A DNA stretch of 26,189 nucleotides, taken from the IMG/VR virus record IMGVR_UViG_3300028374_000057, positions 1-26,189 of that record, one strand, 5' to 3'. The number at the start of each line of letters is the position of its first letter. Within the stretch, counting starts at the first letter, position 1. The stretch is from a virus. Below the pieces are notes generated by a model, which was given only the letters and a program-made list of their open reading frames with translations, was not told where the DNA came from and did no database searches. The translations under genes were made by a program, and so were the position numbers. Shown here piece by piece: positions 8,753 through 26,189 of this stretch.

Positions 8753-8796
8753 TTATTTATACCACTGCAAACCCCATTGGTGAGGGGGCCGGTCTT

Positions 8797-9415
8797 TAAG
8801 ATATGATTGAAAACTTAAGCAAAATAGAGAAGGGAGAGTACGGTTGTTTTGTATTAACTACAAAGTTAATAAAACGCGGTTATAGTGTTTATAGACCCGT
8901 ACTTGAAAATACAAAAGTAGATATTATCGCTGAAAAAGATAACGTATACTATAGAATACAAGTTAAAACTGTCCAAACTCAGTCCCCCTCTTATAAGCTG
9001 ATACCTGTGCGAAAGTTAGGGCACTCTAAAACAAAACATAAGGTGTCTAGATACACCAAAGAAAGTATAGATTACTTTGTTGGAGTAGATATAGAAACCG
9101 AGGATTGTTATGTTTTACCTGTCGAATTTTCTTCAAAGTATAGAACAGGTGTTAGTGTAAATACTTGCGAAAGGTATAAGAATAATTTCAATCTTGAGGA
9201 GCCTTACGTCGGCGACGGTGTAAGTGAACAACAGAATATCGGTGAACCCTTAACAGGTAGGGCTGATGGCGATACCGAGGCATAGGGAGTAAAGTTCCAG
9301 CCGTAGAGACTAGATGCTGTTGCATCTCTTTGAGATGAAGATATAGTCCAGACCACAAACAATATATTGGTAGTGAAAACTATAGTAGGTAAGCAAAACC
9401 GTGTGTCCCGGATTC
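8797..9415 (+). other. Group I intron in the tRNA-Trp anticodon loop
   Basis: P7 strands are visible: GACTA (9308-9312) and TAGTC (9344-9348, in AAGATATAGTCC). The hairpin AGATGC/GCATCT lies between them (P8). A P4-P6-like region, GGTGAACCC to GATACCGAGGCA, lies at about 9240-9285. The guide sequence TTGAGGA at 9194-9200 pairs with TCTTCAA, the joined anticodon-loop exons, over 7 bp with a U-G at T33. Upstream of it, ATCTT (9191-9195) pairs with AAGAT at the intron 5' end (8798-8802), extending P1. The last intron base by this model is C rather than the usual G, so the boundary may be off by one or two bases. The endonuclease gene fills the P1 loop. Insertion between anticodon positions 34 and 35 parallels the known group I intron in cyanobacterial tRNA-Leu(UAA). 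Confidence 0.7.
8803..9285 (+). CDS. Intron-encoded PD-(D/E)XK homing endonuclease
   Basis: 160 residues. The fold is that of the small PD-(D/E)XK endonucleases associated with group I introns (the I-Ssp6803I type, known from a cyanobacterial tRNA intron): GCFVLTTKLIKRGYSVYRPV, then the catalytic strand KVDIIAEKDNVYYRIQVKTVQ with D near residue 46 and Q-V-K as the second half of the motif, then YFVGVDIETEDCYVLPVEF. It begins 6 bases into the intron and its C-terminal ~35 codons read through the intron core (GDGVSEQQNIGEPLTG), so coding and ribozyme sequence overlap. No Shine-Dalgarno is visible. Expected role: cut intronless tRNA-Trp genes and spread the intron. Confidence 0.85.
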   Translation: MIENLSKIEKGEYGCFVLTTKLIKRGYSVYRPVLENTKVDIIAEKDNVYYRIQVKTVQTQSPSYKLIPVRKLGHSKTKHKVSRYTKESIDYFVGVDIETEDCYVLPVEFSSKYRTGVSVNTCERYKNNFNLEEPYVGDGVSEQQNIGEPLTGRADGDTEA

Positions 9416-9480
9416 CAACCCCGGGCTTGGGAGTTCGACTCTCTCCAGTGGTGCAACTCACCCAAGTATTATTATTTAAA

Positions 9481-16450: not shown

Positions 16451-16616
16451 CCATTTTACTAGACCGTGATCGAGTCTAGGTGGAACCTAGGAACGAGATC
16501 GAGTCTAGGTGGAACCTAGGAACGAGATCGAGTCTAGGTGGAACCTAGGAACGAGATCGAGTCTAGGTGGAACCTAGGAACGAGATCCGACCAAAGGTCG
16601 AGGTTTAGTAAAATGG
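16451..16616 (-). repeat. 15-bp inverted repeat enclosing a repeat array
   Basis: CCATTTTACTAGACC (16451-16465) pairs with GGTTTAGTAAAATGG (16602-16616) over 15 bp with one G-T. It encloses the four 29-bp repeats and a further hairpin, CGACC-AAA-GGTCG (16588-16600). The whole would form a multi-hairpin arm in RNA. Confidence 0.85.
16471..16586. repeat. Four identical 29-bp tandem repeats
   Basis: Copies start at 16471, 16500, 16529 and 16558 with no base differences. Each contains the hairpin CTAGGT-GGA-ACCTAG. Perfect identity suggests recent expansion or continuing homogenisation. Confidence 0.95.
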
Positions 16617-17085: not shown

Positions 17086-18683
17086 TCAACTAAAAAAATT
17101 CCAATCGCTGCCTTTCGTCTTTGAACTTCTCCAACACCTATTACAATGGGAGCAGGCCTTATCATGATTGATCTTGCCTGCTAGATCAGGGCATGCTTCT
17201 CTTACAGTCTTGTTGTACTCAATGTCAACGTTCTTTCTACCTATGTTAAAAAAGATTCCGAATTTTCTTTTGTTCCATTCGGTCTGGATTATCCAGTCAT
17301 CTTTTTCACCTGTGAAAGCGAACTGTATTCCGTCATTGCCGTATAAATCTTTTACTACTTCATAATTCTTGATGTTTTCATTGTCAAAGGATAGGACGAT
17401 ATTTGTAAGGTTCGGAAGTTGTCTAAGTGTCTCAAGCTCTTCTTGCATACTCTCCATAGTCAAAGACTTTGAGATAATATAAAACTTAAAAGTAAGCTTT
17501 GAGATGAAATCGTAATGCTCCTTAATGTAATCCCCGCTACCATAAAGACGGACTGGAAGTTTTTCCACTCTTTTCATCTTTTTGCTACGGCTCTTACGAG
17601 CTTTACGGTATTCGTTGTCTAGTTGTCTGGCAAAGTTGTCTGCGTTGTCTGTAGCCCAAGAATTATTTCTTTGAATTTTAGCCAGGTATGCTGGATAAAT
17701 ATTCTCCATATTGTCTACGTACATTTATCTTGACCTTTCAGTCGAGTATAGACTATTTCATTATCCTTAAATTTTTTGAACTTTCTTTTTAGTTTATAAG
17801 GTGATTCTTTATATAACTCATTAAACATTTCAACGTGTTTGCATACATAATGAGTGGTATAAGTTCCACACTTTTCTAACTTTAGAGATGTTTTAGAAAA
17901 GCCATGCTTTTCTAACTCGTTTTTTACTCCTCGTACTACACTTTTAGTTCCAGAGAACCCTAACTTTCTGTATTGTTTCCATTTACAATCCTCGTCAGGG
18001 ATATAGATATACCCATCTGAGTCAAACAATCCAAAAATAAAAGGTAGAATTAATTTGTCTTTTAACCCTGTTGGAAATTTTAAAACTTTTGATTTGTTTG
18101 GGACCACTCCATGTTTTTTCAAATCAGTTGCTAGCTTTTTATTTGTTATTCTCAAAGAGTGTATGTAACCTTTATTTCTATCGTACCTTCTGACCGGTCC
18201 AGAGTAATTTAAAGCTTTTTTAATAAACTCTAAGATATCTCTGTCTTTTACTCCTATGGCCAAAGTCGTATAGTTTTTGTTTGTAATGCATCCATCTCCA
18301 TATATAAAACCTAAAATGTATGCTTTTTCTCTTGTGTCTATTTGTTCAAAATAATTTTTATCTACTGTGTATTTCATTACGAAAATATACGTAATGAATA
18401 TCACATATCCAAGGATATTCGGCGCTTGTGAGAGATTATTGTTAGGCTCACCCTCTAGTCGTTGAACGTTCAAGACCCTTTTAACCTAGGTCAAGCTTCG
18501 CTGCAGATTGCCATAGTATTACTACCTTAGGTTTCCTGCAATTCACCGAATTTTATCAATACATGTTACCATGTAAAGCTGCTACTATTAACAGTAATCG
18601 CACATTTGAGGACATGTGCCTCTGCGATCGAAGTCTACTGACAATACGGTTTTCGAATTCTCGGTAAATGCTCGATTTCGCAT
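17086..18683 (-). CDS. gp88-family protein, gene interrupted by a group I intron
   Basis: Exon 1 is 18683-18591 (31 codons, MRNRAFTENS to CPQMCDYC). Exon 2 is 17721-17086, starting YVDNMENIYPAYL. Joined, they give a 242-residue protein with the gp88 pattern: a Cys cluster CPxxCxxC followed by Y, VRLYGSGDYIKEHYDFISKL, FYIISKSL, LPNLTNIVLSFD, and a C-terminal CPDLAGKINHDKACSHCNRCW. The Cys clusters suggest metal or iron-sulfur binding; the function of the family is not known to me. The unspliced message stops at TAA right after exon 1. The gene ends in TGA followed at once by TAG, so it terminates whichever way TGA is read. It is the last gene of the MoxR-VWA-RT operon. Confidence 0.8.
17715..18377 (-). 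CDS. LAGLIDADG homing endonuclease (intron-encoded)
   Basis: 220 residues from MKYTVDKNYF. Two LAGLIDADG motifs are seen: AYILGFIYGDG (about 19-29), and LPFIFGLFDSDG about 90-100 residues later. Both carry the catalytic acidic residue, as in single-chain enzymes. An open frame extends upstream to 18473, but that part is intron core, so the start at 18377 is preferred. The 3' end reads across the splice site: its TAG stop lies in exon 2, so the endonuclease can be made only from unspliced RNA. It probably cuts intronless gp88 genes. Confidence 0.9.
   Translation of the reverse strand: MKYTVDKNYFEQIDTREKAYILGFIYGDGCITNKNYTTLAIGVKDRDILEFIKKALNYSGPVRRYDRNKGYIHSLRITNKKLATDLKKHGVVPNKSKVLKFPTGLKDKLILPFIFGLFDSDGYIYIPDEDCKWKQYRKLGFSGTKSVVRGVKNELEKHGFSKTSLKLEKCGTYTTHYVCKHVEMFNELYKESPYKLKRKFKKFKDNEIVYTRLKGQDKCT
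17722..18590 (-). other. Group I intron in the gp88 gene
   Basis: 869 bases on the minus strand. The 5' exon ends CTGT and pairs with GCAG a few bases into the intron, giving a U-G at the splice site (P1). The core shows GGTGAATTGCAGGAAACC and GGCAATCTGCAGC (P4-P6), GTTCAACGACTAGAG (P7 5' strand, GACTA) and ATAGTC near the 3' end (P7 3' strand), close to phage T4-type introns. The last base is G, followed by TACGTAGAC of exon 2. Splicing restores CPxxCxxC-Y, a conserved protein motif. The endonuclease gene is inserted between the two P7 strands. Confidence 0.85.
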
Positions 18684-18737: not shown

Positions 18738-19640
18738 TTATACCGGATTCACCGGAATTTTTTTCACTTGTTCAATAAAGAACTTGCCCTGTTGAGGATT
18801 GACCTGATCAATCCAATTAGCATATCCTCTAAGCTTTTGTTTTTCATCTGGGTCTATCTTTTCACCAGATTCTAAAAGGTTGTGAAGTTTTGCCCTGAAC
18901 TTTCTTCTTTTAACCTTTGAAACATTGGTCCTGTCATTTACAACAATACCCGTAACAGACATTTGTTTATTTGCTCGTTGGAATCTGGTTTTTTTTCTGT
19001 TTATGACGAGTCCAAAATCTTCTATAATTTTTGTAACGTCTGCCAAAATATGAGCAAGGTCAATGTCTCCCGTTGCGTGTGAAAAAGTCATATCGTCTGC
19101 GTATCTTGTGTATGTTAGTTTATTATCTAAAGAATAACCATACAACTCTCTATCAAGATCGAAACAAGCTAAATTAGATATTACCGGGGAAGTTGGTGCT
19201 CCTTGTGGTAGCCCTCCTTTATAGCAGCAAAGCTCCGCTAGGTAATCTAATTCCTGCTCACTGAGGGTCGTTAAACTTATATGTTTCTTAGCCCTCTCAG
19301 TTGCTTCTCTGAAAACTTCAATAACCTCATCCTTTTCTACAGAAGGAAAAAAGTTCTTAAGGTCTATATTTAATAGAGCCTTTTGACCTACATGCTGTCT
19401 AGCACCATCCCCTATTCCGTATCCCGGTATAAAGCCGGTTGCAGATGCGTGTGGTCTCCCTTTATATAAAATGGAATGTAGAATGATGTTCTGTGCTGCT
19501 TTTAACTTGTCACTGGGGGCTGTTATTTTGCGTATTTTACCGCTCTTCTTTTTTATCCCAAACGTGTAATAATTAGCTTCAATTGGATTCTTTATTTCTT
19601 TTAGGTTCTCCTGACCTAATAGTTTTTTAATATTATTCAT
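18738..19640 (-). CDS. Retron-like reverse transcriptase
   Basis: 300 residues, the typical retron RT size. Landmarks are N51-IIL-H55 (NAxxH-like region X), HASATGFIPGYGIGDGARQH, catalytic D93 in LNIDLKNFFPS, LPQGAPTSPVISNL (144-157), YADD at 180-183 in YTRYADDMTFS, and SVTGIVVN (228-235), the VTG motif characteristic of retron RTs. There is no maturase or endonuclease domain, so a group II intron origin is unlikely. Upstream it is only 8 bases from the VWA gene (SD AGAGGG), and gp88 follows after 54 bases. No msr-msd-like RNA fits next to it; the nearest candidates are the RNAs at 22.5-22.7 and 16.1-16.8 kb. Trp is TGG and the stop is TAA. Confidence 0.9.
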   Translation of the reverse strand: MNNIKKLLGQENLKEIKNPIEANYYTFGIKKKSGKIRKITAPSDKLKAAQNIILHSILYKGRPHASATGFIPGYGIGDGARQHVGQKALLNIDLKNFFPSVEKDEVIEVFREATERAKKHISLTTLSEQELDYLAELCCYKGGLPQGAPTSPVISNLACFDLDRELYGYSLDNKLTYTRYADDMTFSHATGDIDLAHILADVTKIIEDFGLVINRKKTRFQRANKQMSVTGIVVNDRTNVSKVKRRKFRAKLHNLLESGEKIDPDEKQKLRGYANWIDQVNPQQGKFFIEQVKKIPVNPV

Positions 19641-19648
19641 TTACCCTC

Positions 19649-21142
19649 TTAAAAAATATTTTTAAATATGGTTTTTGCCGCTTCAAATTTTTCATTACTT
19701 ATGTCTTTGAGATGGACTACCTCATTAGAAAACTGCTCTAGGGATTTAGTAGTTCCGTACCCTCTATCCATTAAAATAGACGTTACCTTGACATTATTCT
19801 CATCTCTCCAACTTAAAAAACTTTTTAAGAAAGCATCAGTAACCCCGGAACATCCGTCAGTTAGCATTATTACATCTGCTTTAAAAAATTCAGGTTCCTT
19901 GTCGATCTCTATTCGAGACCGTTTTAATGGTACTTCAAAATTTGTTCCCGCACTTTCAAAGTATTCAGCCATTTCTATAACCTGTTCTACCTTAAAAGGC
20001 TTCTTAGGGCTAAAGTAATGTGTCACTAATTCTGATGGATGCGAGGCGTCAGAGAAATGTATCCCTAGAAAGGCTCTCTTCTGCCTCCTTGATATTTCTA
20101 AAAGACTTAGGGCAACCGCTTTCGTAAAGATTTCATTTTCTCCCTGCATACTTCCTGAGGAGTCCATTAAAACTAAGATGGGTCCCATCCCTTTTTTAGA
20201 CTTAGTCCCGTAATTGTGTTGCATTAACCTTCTCTCGGAGTATTTCTTTAAAAATACTTGACGATACGTACTGTGGTTAAACCCTACTAATTCTGAGGGA
20301 AGCACTCTGGGGAGATCATTACCTATTGTTACATCTCTTAATGTTTCTTTGGCTTTACGGGAGTTTTCCCTCTCTCCCTTTAGATAGATCTCTTTTAATC
20401 GGCCAGCTAATAAAGATATTTCTCTAAGCTTAGGATTTTTGCTGATCTTGTTTATTAGACCTAGCTTTTCTTCATAGGGCATTTTCTGGTAAGAACCGTC
20501 ATTTCCCAATCCCCAGTTCTTGATATTATCTCCAAGCTCCCGCTGCTGTCCAGCCAAAACATTTAGTGACCTAATTAGTTTTGATCTAACCTTATCTTTG
20601 AAAAGCTGATCTATTTTGTCTTTTGCTTTCTCCATAGCATCTTTTACCTCGTCCAGGGTATGTTCTTTCCCAGGCCCTAGTTTTTTAGAGGCCTCCTCAA
20701 TTACAGATTCCATAGCTTGCATAATTTGGTTGTATTCTGTAATGATGTCGTCCAGATCCTTTAAAAGGTCCTCAATAAAAACCTCAGTACCTGTTATGGA
20801 TGCTATCTTATCATTTCTGGAGAAGTTTCTTATTTCTTTGAAACGTGAAGATTTTGTAAAAGCCTCTAAAACTCTGTAATTCAGCTGATGAGATGATTTC
20901 ATTAACTGTGGTTTTACAAGCTGGGGATAATGCCGGTATAGGGCTGTATAAACATCGCAGATTAAATCCCTCACCGGCGGGTATTTATCCTTATATTTTT
21001 GGACAATTTTCTTTAATCGCGAGCTTTTTTTAAATAATGTTTTATCGAAATTTTCTTTATCTATAGTAGTTGTATGAAAACAATTCTCGTACAGCTCTAA
21101 CTCCTCTGATAGGGAGGTGTTGTTCTTTCCTAAATATTTCAT
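19649..21142 (-). CDS. ViaA-like von Willebrand factor A (VWA) protein
   Basis: 497 residues from the ATG at 21142, which has AAGGAG upstream; an ATG at 21172 would add 10 residues. The N-terminal two-thirds is helical. LPSELVGFNHSTYRQVFLKKYSERRLM precedes the VWA domain, as in ViaA/CoxE-type partners of MoxR ATPases. The MIDAS metal site is LVLMDSSGSMQGE (DxSxS at 326-330), GTNFEVPL and IMLTDGCSG. The partner ATPase is directly upstream. In RavA-ViaA and related pairs the ATPase remodels targets selected by the VWA protein. Large phages also carry CobS/CobT-like pairs of this type. Trp is TGG only. Confidence 0.85.
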   Translation of the reverse strand: MKYLGKNNTSLSEELELYENCFHTTTIDKENFDKTLFKKSSRLKKIVQKYKDKYPPVRDLICDVYTALYRHYPQLVKPQLMKSSHQLNYRVLEAFTKSSRFKEIRNFSRNDKIASITGTEVFIEDLLKDLDDIITEYNQIMQAMESVIEEASKKLGPGKEHTLDEVKDAMEKAKDKIDQLFKDKVRSKLIRSLNVLAGQQRELGDNIKNWGLGNDGSYQKMPYEEKLGLINKISKNPKLREISLLAGRLKEIYLKGERENSRKAKETLRDVTIGNDLPRVLPSELVGFNHSTYRQVFLKKYSERRLMQHNYGTKSKKGMGPILVLMDSSGSMQGENEIFTKAVALSLLEISRRQKRAFLGIHFSDASHPSELVTHYFSPKKPFKVEQVIEMAEYFESAGTNFEVPLKRSRIEIDKEPEFFKADVIMLTDGCSGVTDAFLKSFLSWRDENNVKVTSILMDRGYGTTKSLEQFSNEVVHLKDISNEKFEAAKTIFKNIF

Positions 21143-21149
21143 AAATTTA

Positions 21150-21170
21150 AAGGGGCTCCTTAAGGGCCCC
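21150..21170 (-). other. Intercistronic hairpin between ATPase and VWA genes
   Basis: On the minus strand GGGGCCC-TTAA-GG(A)GCCCC forms a 7-bp G+C stem with one bulged base. It contains the AAGGAG that would serve the VWA gene, so the hairpin could limit VWA translation or protect the downstream mRNA. Confidence 0.45.
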
Positions 21171-21180
21171 ATATTATAGA

Positions 21181-22356
21181 TTAAACTTGCATATCATGGA
21201 TGCCGTGTCCTTCGCTAAAAATGCGTTTGACCCAGCCGTCAATAGTATTTATCTTTTTGTCTATTGTTTTTGTACTTTTACCGTCTGAAACTATTCCGTC
21301 TTTTATCTCGTCTAACCTGTCACGGACATCTACTAAGTCTTGAATGAAGTGCACATAATTACCCTCTGAGGTACCGTGCTCATTAAAAGCTTTCTTGTAT
21401 TTGTCCATAACGTTCGTGGCTTTAGAAAACTCTTCGATAATTTTCTCAGCCTCTGAAGATATGTTAGCATAAACCTTTGCACTTATTAAAGGAATATCGT
21501 CATCATTTCTCCATAAGACGTTTACTAGGGTTTCCAAATCGTCTATCTCTGCTTCTTTTCTACCCTCTAGTAAAGCATTCGCTTGTACTATTTTCATGCT
21601 TTGATTAGCCATTCTAGGTGAAATTTCTAGTCCTTCAGATCGTAAAGCATTTTTGATTTTAACAAATGCTTTTAAAACACTTAAAGGAACTGTTACCTCA
21701 CTTCGCAGCTTTTGTAGGGTGTGAACCTCGTCCAAAGTTATAGATGCTTCTTTTACACGAGTTCCCTCTAAAGAGTTTTGCATCATCTTTACAAGATTCG
21801 CGTCTTCTTGAATCGTATCTACTTTAAACTTTAAAATAAATCTGTCCAATGCGGCATCTAAATGATCATTAGCTTCCGGAAGTTCATTAGAAGCACCGGC
21901 TAATAAGATGGTAGGTACTTTGATTTGTTTACCGTGATTATGAAATACCCGCTCATTCATTACAGATAACAAAGAGTTAATAACCCCATTGTTACATTTC
22001 CAAATTTCATCTAAAAATACAACGTGAGCCTCGCTCAGCATTCCCTCGGTATGTCTCTCAAACTTGCCCTCCTGTAAACTAGTTAAAGAGTATGTACCAA
22101 AAAGTTCGTCAGGTGTGGTAAATTTACCAACCAACCATTCAAAATAGTCTGATTCAACAATTCTTTTTGAAAAATCTTTTATGAGCAGACTTTTACCTAC
22201 TCCGGGATCACCTAGTAATAGAACATTAGTGTTAGCTATTATAGCTAAACTAAGACCGCGTATTTCTTCGGTGCGTTCTACGTGAAATAAATTTAACTCA
22301 TTTTCTATGTCTCTCATTTTTTGGGCTTCGCTTTGCCCTGTAAGAGTTTTTGTCAT
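21181..22356 (-). CDS. MoxR-family AAA+ ATPase
   Basis: 391 residues. Walker A GDPGVGKS at 49-56, Walker B VVFLDE at 112-117 with the MoxR-typical IWKCN after it, sensor 1 LLAGASNELPE around N157, and an arginine-finger-like DRF at 171-173. After the ATPase core comes a helical lid and a C-terminal extension of about 110 residues. The sequence is closest to RavA/MoxR-type ATPases that act as chaperones with VWA partners. It is the first large gene of a four-gene minus-strand operon with the VWA protein, the retron-like RT and gp88. No Shine-Dalgarno; the leader is A/T-rich. Trp is TGG only. Confidence 0.9.
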   Translation of the reverse strand: MTKTLTGQSEAQKMRDIENELNLFHVERTEEIRGLSLAIIANTNVLLLGDPGVGKSLLIKDFSKRIVESDYFEWLVGKFTTPDELFGTYSLTSLQEGKFERHTEGMLSEAHVVFLDEIWKCNNGVINSLLSVMNERVFHNHGKQIKVPTILLAGASNELPEANDHLDAALDRFILKFKVDTIQEDANLVKMMQNSLEGTRVKEASITLDEVHTLQKLRSEVTVPLSVLKAFVKIKNALRSEGLEISPRMANQSMKIVQANALLEGRKEAEIDDLETLVNVLWRNDDDIPLISAKVYANISSEAEKIIEEFSKATNVMDKYKKAFNEHGTSEGNYVHFIQDLVDVRDRLDEIKDGIVSDGKSTKTIDKKINTIDGWVKRIFSEGHGIHDMQV

Positions 22357-22800: not shown

Positions 22801-25800
22801 ATGTCAGATACAAATTTCTTAGACCACAAAGTACAAAATCAGCAGATACAAAAATCTCTGCAAGATTCCATAACGAACATGTTTCCTGTAGAACAAGATG
22901 GAAAAAAGTTAATATTATCCAATTTACAAATTGAAGATACCTTGGGAGAAACAGATTTCCCAGGCCAGAAAGAAACTAGGCTAAATAGAGGTAGCTGAGA
23001 AGTCCCTATTAAGGCTGATTTAGCTATAGTAGATTCCAGCTCTGGAAGAACTATATCTAGTAAAACTAATGCCAAAATTGGCGCTATACCAAAGCTCACC
23101 AATAGATTTAGCGCAATTGTAGGGGGAAATGAATATCAAGTTTTTAACCAGATAAGAAGGAAGAGTGGTGTTTATTCTCGTAAGAAAAAGAATGGGCAGT
23201 TAGAGAGTGAGTTTAACTTAGAGAAGGGTGCAAACTTTTCTTTGGAGCTAGACCCACAGAAGCAAATATTTTATTTAATTTTGAGAAGTGGAACTCGTAA
23301 ATACCGTTTGTATACTCTGCTTAGCCATTTGGGTATGATGGACTCAAAAATGAAAAATGCTTGAGGAGAAAATCTTTTTGAAACAAATAAAAGTGGTTTT
23401 GAGCGAACAGAGCAGAGTGAGATTGTTGATTTATATAAAAAGTTAATTGACAAGAATAATGTACCTCAGACTCTTTCTAAAGTAAGCGCCGGGCTTAGAA
23501 AATATTTTGAAGAGACGGCAATGAACCCAGAGGTAAATAAAATCACTTTAGGATCCGGGCATAAAGTCGTTTCTCCAGAGGCTCTTATCGATGCCTCAAT
23601 TAGGCTTCTTAATATTAACAAGGGGACAGAAAAGCCTGATGAGAGAGACTCTCTTATTTTCAAAAATATTTACGCACCAGATGACCTTTTAAAAGAATAT
23701 TTTAATGCGCATGGTAAGACTATACAAAGAAAGCTACAAAACTCTTTAAGAAATAGAGACCAGGTTGGAGAAGTAGTTGCTTCAAACGTTTTTACAAAAC
23801 CTTTGAGAAACTTTTTTACTACAAGTGATCTATCCTCTACACCGCCACAAACAAACCCTGTGGCTATGCTTACTAACGCACGTAAAACTACATCTATGGG
23901 AGAGGGTGGTATTCGAAACATGCACTCTATTACTATGGAGACTCGTGATGTTCAGCCATCCCATTTTGGGTTTTTAGATTCCCTTTCGACACCAGAATCT
24001 CTGAAAGTAGGGGTATCTGTGGGTCTAGGTAGTGAAGTTCATAAGAAAGGTAATGAAATGGTCACTCCGGTGGTTATGCCAGACGGTAAAATTGAAGACA
24101 AGAGCCCTATGGATTTTTATAACTCTACTGTTGGGTTTCCAGATCAATTTACTATGAAGAATGGGAAGCCTAAAGCTCTTTTCAAAAAGGTTAAGGCTAT
24201 GAAAAATCACAAGCCTGCCGAAGTTAAACCTAGTGAGGTTGATTTTTATCTAAGATCTCCTCAAAGCATGTTTGACTTTGGTGCTAACCTAGTTCCTTTT
24301 TTATCCACTACTCAAGGTAACCGGGCCTCTACTGCCGGACGAATGATTACACAGGCCTTGCCTCTGGATAATCCGGAAGCCCCTCTGACTACTGTCAACC
24401 GAGACGGAGAAAGTACCTATGAAGATTTTATGGGAACTATTTTATTACCTACTCTTTCAAAAGAGAGTGGAAAAGATAATGTTGGTGGTACTGTAGATAA
24501 AATAACAGATGAATATATTCATATAAAAGGTGATGATGGCGAAGATTATAAAGTAGGTCTTTATAAAGATTTCCCTCTTAACCAAGACGGTTTTTTAAAC
24601 ACCTCCCCTATTGTAAAAGAAGGCGACAAAGTTAAACCAAAAGACTTATTAGCTAAAAGTAATTTTACAGATGATAAAGGAAGACTTGCTTTAGGTAAAA
24701 ACCTGACAGTGGCTTACATTTCGTACAAAGGTAATTCTTTTGAAGATGGTGCTACTATAACTGAAAGTGCTGCCAAAAAACTTTCTCACTCCTCTATAGA
24801 TAGGATCAATGTGTTCTTTACACCGAAGCTATCTGTGTTTGACAAAAAAAGATTCAGAGCCTTATTCCCTGAGGAGCTCCCTCCAAGTAATTCAGATAAA
24901 TTAGATGAACAGGGACTACCTAAGCCTGGTGAGAAATTTCAAAAAGGAGAAACTTTAGCAGCCTTTTTGGTTAAAAAAGAAGTAGATGACTTAGATGCTT
25001 CTTTAAAAAAGTTAAATAAAGCTATTTACACTCCTTACTCTAAGAACGTAACCGTCTGGGATGAGGAAGATGTAGGGGAAGTTGTTGAGGTTAGAAAAAC
25101 TGGAAGAAACATTGACATCTATGTTAAAAGTGTTCACCCTTTCAAAGGAGGAGATAAACTATGCGTAGATGAAGAAACGGAATTTCTAACTGATAAAGGG
25201 TGGAAATCTATTTTAGAGTTAAAGGGTTCTGAAAAATTCTGTACCCTAAATCCAAATGGAGAATTAATAGAGTACCAAGAGGCCCAAAGTATTAATATAT
25301 ATGACCATGAGGGTCCTATGTATAAGATAGCAAATACTACTATAGATCAACTTGTTACTCTAGGCCATAAAATGTATGTTAAGCCTCGTAACCCTTTAAA
25401 TAGTGGATACGGTTTATTTAATCCTAAAGATATATTTGGTAAGCGAGTCAGGTATTCTAAAAGTGGTAAATGGTTTGGGGAGGATCTTGTAATACCCTCT
25501 GAAATACAACATGAAATTGATGCTTTAGATTTTGCTTCATTTATGGGATGGTTTTTATCTGAGGGAAATACTAACAAAACTCCAAAAGGGTATGTAACTA
25601 CAATCCATCAGAGTTTAGAAATAAATCCTATTAACTATAAAGAGATAGTTAATTTACTAAAAAGGATGAATCTTACTCCAATTGAGCAAAAAGATAGAAT
25701 TACCTTTAATTCCAAGTCTTTTTATTACTATTTAAAGCCTTTCGGCAAATCCTTTCAAAAATTTGTCCCAGATGCTATAAAAGAGTCTGACTCTGAATAT

Positions 25801-26189
25801 ATAGAAGCTTTTTTAGATGCTTACTGTAAAGGGGATGGTTCTATAAATAATAGCGGGCAAAAAGTTTATATAACATCCTCATTAAAAATGAGAGATGATT
25901 TGATGGAATTGATACTTAAAAACGGTATGGCAGCTAATTATACTTTAGCTTCTCCAGCCGGTACCCGGGTTTTTGAATATTTTTCTAACTATGATTGTTG
26001 GAATATTAGAGAAATAAAAACAAAATTGTACCCACAAGTTAATCATGGGCACGTACATGATCAAAATGCACAAGAAGAGGATTATATACACTATGAGGGC
26101 AAAGTAGGATGCCCTACTACTCCTAACGGTATAGTTTATATTAGAAGAAATGGTAAAACTAGTTGGACTGGTAATTCGTCGCGCTATGG
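22801..26189 (+). CDS. Phage RNA polymerase beta (RpoB)-like subunit with intein (3' end outside window)
   Basis: Open from 22801 to the end once TGA at 22996 (GSWEVPI) and 23362 (NAWGENL) are read as Trp. Conserved beta-subunit blocks appear in order. QTNPVAMLTNARKTTSMGEG and RDVQPSHFGFLDSLSTPES (about residues 355-400) match the RpoB stretch RDVHPTHYGR-IETPEG. VAYISYKGNSFEDGATITES (about 636-655) matches AFMPWNGYNFEDSILISE. FKGGDKL, then SSRYG after the intein, matches the active-site GDKMAGRHGNKG. Only about 787 residues precede that motif, shorter than in bacterial RpoB (about 1065), as in virus-type multisubunit polymerases of phiKZ/AR9-like phages. It is expected to transcribe phage genes with beta'-like partners encoded outside the window. 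Confidence 0.9.
25162..26175 (+). mobile_element. LAGLIDADG intein in the RNA polymerase beta-like subunit
   Basis: 338 residues, complete. Block A is CVDEETEFLTDKGWKSI (Cys1), block B is DQLVTLGHKMYVKP. The endonuclease motifs are ASFMGWFLSEGNT and IEAFLDAYCKGDGS, and the end is GIVYIRRNGKTSWTGN with Ser at +1 of the extein. The penultimate residue is Gly rather than the usual His, as in some phage inteins. Removal joins GDKL to SSRYG, restoring the polymerase GDK-RHG-type motif. Its Trp codons are TGG, unlike the start of the host gene. Confidence 0.92.

Follow-up and report, generated by a model that had tools for sequence, protein, structure and literature searches.

A group I intron inside the anticodon of a candidate UGA-reading phage tRNA-Trp with a second, CCA-bearing arm

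How can one tRNA be charged with tryptophan and also read UGA? Since the synthetase TrpRS reads the anticodon, a tRNA with anticodon UCA is in conflict between Trp charging and UGA reading. We met this question in a 26,189-base stretch of viral DNA (the window), which covers part of the genome of a large phage, a virus of bacteria, and carries tail-fibre, phage RNA polymerase beta-like, MoxR ATPase, reverse transcriptase and actin-like Volactin genes. Several genes in the window are open only when TGA is read as an amino acid. A preliminary description of this DNA had held that the phage's own TGA codons need a UGA-decoding tRNA, and two alignments indicate that TGA is read as Trp, since it falls on conserved Trp positions. 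In the last CBM5/12 chitin-binding domain, each of the three TGA codons is matched by one of the three Trp in chitinase A1 (1ed7), and the TGA in 'VEF-TGA-AEW' of the thioredoxin gene stands at a Trp of the bacterial thioredoxin WAxW.

The tRNA gene lies in two halves on the plus strand. The 5' exon (8761..8796) holds the first acceptor strand (8761-8767), a CAAA linker, the D arm (8772-8787) and the 5' half of the UCA arm down to C32-U33-U34. The 3' exon (9394..9453) supplies CAAA, which is the rest of the UCA loop, followed by the ACCG stem strand, a CCA-bearing arm, the variable loop, the T arm, the acceptor strand and G73. Between U34 and C35 lies a group I intron (8797-9393, plus strand) of 597 nt that begins with U and ends with G. 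Much of the preliminary description stands: the 7-bp acceptor stem (ACCACTG, 8761-8767, with CAGTGGT, 9446-9452), the T arm (9429-9445) and the Trp-type G73 (9453) are in place, and anticodon UCA still forms across the corrected junction. Its core proposal, a tRNA-Trp(UCA) split by a group I intron inside the anticodon, is retained, but the junction, the length and the plain cloverleaf had to be revised. The bacterial Trp identity elements A1-U72 (A8761, T9452) and G73 (G9453) are present, and the gene has no encoded CCA tail.

The 3' splice site had originally been placed 22 nt away, joining U8796 to C9416 and leaving an intron that ends in C. We set the 3' end of the intron by homology to 13 or more introns ('TAGTGGTAAG|') and by intron-minus alleles. 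In the relatives, every tRNA intron finishes with '...TAGTGGTAAG' or a close variant of it, always with a final G, and G9393 is the corresponding base of the window; the 3' exon therefore reads CAAAACCGTGTGTCCCGGATTCCAACCCCGGGCTTGGGAG... and starts at C9394, 22 nt longer than first described. The U34|C35 junction is common to all split relatives, and the boundaries are those of a group I intron, with the 5' exon ending in U8796 and the intron in G9393. As natural alleles we compared L107 and L116, which have no intron, against L037 and L034. L037, L107 and L116 come from related phages with homologous flanking genes, and the two intron-minus alleles share 93/98 and 92/98 identical alignment columns with the intron-bearing L037. 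With the corrected junction, U31-A39, G30-C40, G29-C41 and C28-G42 all pair in the anticodon stem.

The earlier junction would give a plain class I tRNA-Trp(UCA) with an intron of 8797-9415 and a 3' exon starting CAACCCCGGG, a variable loop of normal length and a tRNA-Trp-like 3' part. We consider it very improbable, since its intron would end in C while in all relatives the intron stops at the base homologous to G9393, since it leaves a U31-C39 mismatch in the anticodon stem, and since the extra 20+ nt that it removes are kept in intronless two-headed tRNAs. The proposed exon start, 'CAACCCCGGG...' from 9416 on, belongs to the 3' side of another hairpin, one that bears CCA, and the misplaced splice site hid this most unusual feature of the locus. 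The same model had drawn on a guide, TTGAGGA (9194-9200), paired with UCUUCAA; this pairing is possible in the window but is not kept in the relatives, and we rejected it as a general rule. The internal guide is more probably the GAG at 9199..9201 (plus strand), which would pair with C32-U33-U34 and adjoins P2 in all relatives. From its position next to P2, U34.G9199 would be the usual U.G pair at the splice site. ORF-bearing introns of UCA, Arg and Leu tRNAs have GAG as the guide triplet, and ORF-less UCA introns have GUG.

The presence of a group I intron between the halves, as first proposed, is confirmed by a 13-intron alignment in which P3, P4-P6, P7, P8 and P9 were found. The consensus fold of these 13 introns has double changes in 25 of 40 pairs, with covariation in P2, P3, P5, P8, P9 and P9.1. 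The P3 5' strand CAACAG (9229..9234, plus strand) pairs with 9317-9322, with compensatory changes in all six pairs. The P7 5' strand GACTA (9308..9312, plus strand) pairs with TAGTC (9344-9348) and is invariant in the 13 introns; because P7 forms a pseudoknot with P3, it was read by eye. Rfam RF00028 gave the window intron a weak 16.9-17.6 bits, below the curated cut-off of 50 of a model that is not tuned to such short cores. The UCA-tRNA introns of L036 and L042 have an extra insertion of ~115 nt in the core relative to L041.

Within the intron, an ORF at 8803..9285 (plus strand) encodes a 160-aa PD-(D/E)XK homing endonuclease of the I-Ssp6803I family, and its 3' part overlaps the ribozyme core. 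The ORF contains the PDDEXK_5 domain PF11645 (E 1.2e-18; 67.9 bits against a cut-off of 26.1), and the intron ORFs of L034 and L039 are 45-52% identical to it. I-Ssp6803I (PDB 2ost), from the Synechocystis tRNA-fMet intron, belongs to the same fold family and also to a tRNA anticodon intron, but it is distant in sequence (E 0.0019 against the window ORF) and sits in another tRNA. The window core and P3 are closest to the intron of a viral tRNA-Leu(UAA) (L064), whose ORF differs from that of the window except in the part overlapping the core. A similar core with a different ORF would fit movement of the intron between U34 tRNAs.

Related introns were found in viral contigs with a pattern linking the P7/P8 signature to the T arm; since these collections were sampled by patterns, the counts are not frequencies. 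Requiring the 3' exon CAA returned 13 contigs, and dropping the 3' exon condition returned 34, including a few non-tRNA or cut-off sites. ARAGORN with introns allowed reported several relatives as UCA tRNAs split inside the anticodon. In about 11 distinct viral UCA loci, a count that may take in near-duplicates of the window, an intron of this family lies at the identical position, and the family also occupies that site in viral tRNA-Leu(UAA) and tRNA-Arg(UCU). The split UCA tRNA of the window is thus not a single case, and the intron family recurs in viral loci. Its occurrence in Leu and Arg tRNAs speaks for a mobile element dependent on a CUU 5' exon and against a dedicated recoding device. 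Most likely, then, the intron is a mobile element using U34 tRNAs, and an effect on the timing of recoding is a possible by-product. Three loci (L059, L067, L068) combine the same intron with a 3' exon AAAATCC, giving anticodon UAA, and a short variable loop unlike that of ordinary tRNA-Leu(UAA).

We also asked how much of the DNA around these tRNAs is covered by ORFs when TGA is read. Coverage usually rises near split UCA tRNAs (for example, from 0.10 to 0.65 and from 0.39 to 0.78), and there is hardly any gain near split Arg tRNAs in long loci. The test is blunt where few long genes adjoin tRNA clusters, and some two-headed loci show no gain. The gain near most split UCA tRNAs places them in recoding phages. 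Four contigs (G005, G006, G010 and G011, with L044, L046, L047 and L048) hold a split UCA tRNA together with more than 20 other tRNAs; three of the four also have a tmRNA, and in G010 and G011 an intact tRNA-Trp(CCA) stands apart from the split tRNA.

The spliced window tRNA is 96 nt long and carries an extra arm, unlike the plain cloverleaf first described. Its arms follow in the order acceptor, D arm, UCA anticodon arm, second hairpin and T arm. The second, anticodon-like arm (9407..9425, plus strand) has the stem CCCGG/CCGGG, an A.C pair and the loop UUCCAAC, with CCA at 9415-9417. In this hairpin, CCCGG-A-UUCCAAC-C-CCGGG, the seven-base loop presents U33 and CCA at 34-36, as in tRNA-Trp. 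A Trp-type CCA is absent from the anticodon arm, which has UCA, and is found in the extra arm. The preliminary description had left open whether the product would be UCA or CCA, an ambiguity explained by the tRNA having both anticodons, each in an arm of its own. There is no class I-type variable loop of 4-5 nt; ~27 nt separate the UCA arm from the T stem in the spliced form and fold as the CCA-loop hairpin, with a fold probability in the window of 0.84-0.86 per pair. The UCA arm has four pairs only, plus a C27-U43 mismatch, and the T arm is not in the predicted minimum, which prefers an alternative T hairpin (T-stem pair probability ~0.11). ARAGORN with its intron options called no tRNA at this gene in the window, tRNA programs missed it in the sister contig too, and the spliced window sequence gave no ARAGORN call. 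A relaxed-score scan of all exon joins in the window was too permissive to use.

To see the second arm in other tRNAs, we fetched intronless UCA tRNAs with a search pattern in which the UCA arm and the T loop are set and any sequence may stand between them. TCCAA occurred in the long variable region of 28 of the 50 contigs matched, and the best hairpin with a seven-base loop, chosen with the loop sequence ignored, placed CCA at loop positions 3-5 in 22 of these 28. The same loop-blind search found CCA in the split tRNAs L034 and L037; such a simple hairpin search misses the window arm because of its A.C pair. When all the distinct tRNAs called in the fetched sequences were compared, 17 of 18 A1-type long-variable UCA tRNAs had a hairpin with a UCCA loop, and none of 73 Leu/Ser/Tyr tRNAs and none of nine short-variable UCA tRNAs did. 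Three of 12 G1-type UCA tRNAs had it, all three two-headed, and the other nine look like genuine tRNA-Sec. Most split UCA tRNAs in this collection, and nine intronless UCA tRNAs, are without the CCA arm. A further two-headed tRNA lies at 3882-3977 of L125 (reverse strand of the locus), on an 11.7-kb metagenome contig that is binned as Coriobacteriia and is possibly a phage contig.

For covariation, 20 distinct arms were aligned that had been picked for containing TCCA, so that their loop invariance is by construction. In the stem, 90% of cells are paired against 55.7% in shuffles, and the covariation is 0.842 against 0.217 in shuffles (0/500) and lower in every slid version, figures that are not probabilities because the sequences are related. 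Of nine relatives folded, most have the five-arm form, or nearly so, as their lowest-energy prediction; the minimum for L085 leaves out the CCA arm. The stretch that runs from the CCA arm up to the 3' end matches tRNA-Trp 3' halves of named phages at 80-89%, which suggests that a tRNA-Trp anticodon arm was duplicated and that one copy became UCA. BLAST of the 74-nt and 96-nt tRNAs against named phages and plasmids returned part-length matches only, mostly to tRNA-Trp halves, and no named phage with a whole two-headed tRNA. In 84,980 bacterial and archaeal species genomes, the pattern matched twice: one match is a real tRNA-Sec by sequence, and the other is the two-headed tRNA of L125.

Such an origin raises the question of whether the arm does anything. 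It could be a roleless leftover of the duplication, the acceptor stem and a TrpRS tolerant of U34 being enough for charging. Size is the main feature by which E. coli TrpRS recognises C34 (PMC12135181); it may therefore accept U34 and have no need of the CCA arm, and recoded phages with armless UCA tRNAs do exist. However, the stem covariation and the CCA loop kept in divergent tRNAs imply selection, and we regard the leftover as unlikely, though worth keeping in mind. It is more doubtful still that the CCA arm works as the anticodon, either alone with a passive UCA arm or together with it so that UGG and UGA are both read. The arm is indeed placed relative to the T arm as a tRNA-Trp anticodon arm would be, but the UCA arm is well formed in intronless relatives, the phages use TGA, and one phage has a tRNA-Trp(CCA) alongside its two-headed tRNA.

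ARAGORN labels relatives of this tRNA as selenocysteine tRNAs, and UCA, G73, a long variable region and a length of ~96 nt are all in keeping with that label. We rejected tRNA-Sec as hardly credible. The 8-bp acceptor stem and 13-bp domain are absent, the acceptor/T domain being 7 + 5, and an eighth pair would be C-C; the first pair is A1-U72. The nine other G1 (Sec-type) UCA tRNAs have no CCA-bearing variable arm, and TGA is frequent at Trp positions. tRNA-Sec and the selC* tRNA-Cys (PMC7609411) likewise combine UCA with a long variable arm, and some selC* have A1-U72; they differ in an 8/5 or 8/4 acceptor domain or U73, and a CCA-bearing variable arm is not described for them.

A search by flanking genes for close relatives of the window found one near-identical contig only. 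This sister contig (G001, 43.8 kb) is 99.75% identical to the window over 23.9 kb, with one change in the intron, A9274G. A second intact tRNA-Trp or UCA tRNA, which the preliminary description had said would make the split gene dispensable, was found in neither; the window has no further tRNA at all, and the sister contig has seven others, none of them Trp or UCA. Both contigs are incomplete genomes, and a second UCA tRNA may lie elsewhere. With 26-44 kb known of a probably much larger genome, the intron or tRNA might have decayed to give no working product while another tRNA elsewhere reads UGA, and the odd four-base linker and weak UCA stem could be taken as signs of this. We think it improbable, given the conserved core, the open endonuclease frame and the intact arms in two contigs, and given that the intact relatives L103 and L105 have a similar linker and D arm.

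We therefore favor, with a probability of roughly three in four, an intron-split tRNA-Trp that reads UGA, in which the UCA arm decodes and the CCA arm and acceptor serve TrpRS. The sequence and structure of the split two-armed tRNA are well supported; its splicing and charging are what we infer. The group I RNA would splice itself, with guanosine attacking after U34 and the exons being joined after the last G, to create the UCA anticodon. Removal of the intron has to come first, because it breaks the UCA loop in two; the precursor already has an intact CCA arm. Bacterial TrpRS depends on G73, anticodon CCA and, less strongly, A1-U72 (PMC9976931, PMC12135181), and all of these are in the window tRNA, with CCA moved to a separate arm. 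The host TrpRS would then charge the tRNA through G73/A1-U72 and the CCA arm, and the ribosome would read UGA through the UCA arm, so that identity and decoding would be split between two arms. As a tentative generalization with a real chance of being right, some phages may recode UGA by a five-armed tRNA with identity and decoding divided in this way, and in a subset splicing could gate the code switch.

The intron site, U34/C35, is that of the cyanobacterial tRNA-Leu(UAA) introns, and the GAG at 9199-9201 next to P2 is homologous in position to the guide of Anabaena-type introns. The cyanobacterial and plastid tRNA-Leu(UAA) introns and related bacterial introns likewise lie at 34/35 after C32-U33-U34 and have a P2-side guide, a small core and a final G. 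The cyanobacterial introns, however, sit in host genes, whereas the window intron sits in a phage UGA-decoding tRNA-Trp. A 2014 review places every phage group I intron known at that time in protein-coding genes (PMC3984707). In the open-access literature, preprints excluded, we found no phage tRNA group I introns and no tRNAs with two anticodon arms, and a 2020 review of non-canonical tRNAs mentions neither phages nor two anticodons.

Two phage systems come closer in function. The UGA/UAG suppressor tRNAs of recoded phages (PMC7886860) are also stop-reading phage tRNAs, associated with recoded late genes; in contrast to the window tRNA, no anticodon intron or second anticodon arm is described for them. 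Theta ribozymes adjoining phage suppressor tRNAs (PMC10879173) likewise link a ribozyme to a recoding tRNA, but they are self-cleaving and HDV-like, lie beside the tRNA and accompany almost only UAG tRNAs, whereas the window intron lies inside the anticodon. If our reading is true, showing one anticodon to the synthetase and another to the ribosome would be a natural solution to the conflict, with direct use in genetic-code engineering. tRNA finders miss split UCA tRNAs and label unsplit ones tRNA-Sec, and such missed or mislabelled tRNAs may help explain recoded phages that seem to have no suppressor tRNA. The intron would also tie self-splicing to the start of recoding in a simple way that can be tested.

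Elsewhere in the window we noted further elements. In the region 17715-18600 on the minus strand, a strong group I match (RF00028, 68.4 bits) at 18338-18600 overlaps a LAGLIDADG endonuclease ORF, and a second, weaker group I match lies at 17729-17871; this region is directly downstream of the reverse transcriptase gene (18738-19640). On the minus strand at 19649-22356, a MoxR-type ATPase (bpMoxR) stands beside an unknown 507-aa protein, possibly as a conflict system of the MoxR-vWA type. A 29-bp tandem repeat occupies 16462-16606, where the alignment between the window and G001 is irregular. The RNA polymerase beta-like gene (22801-26187, plus strand) has two in-frame TGA codons, and at ~25160-26187 on the plus strand it contains what appears to be the beginning of a LAGLIDADG-bearing intein, which runs off the window.
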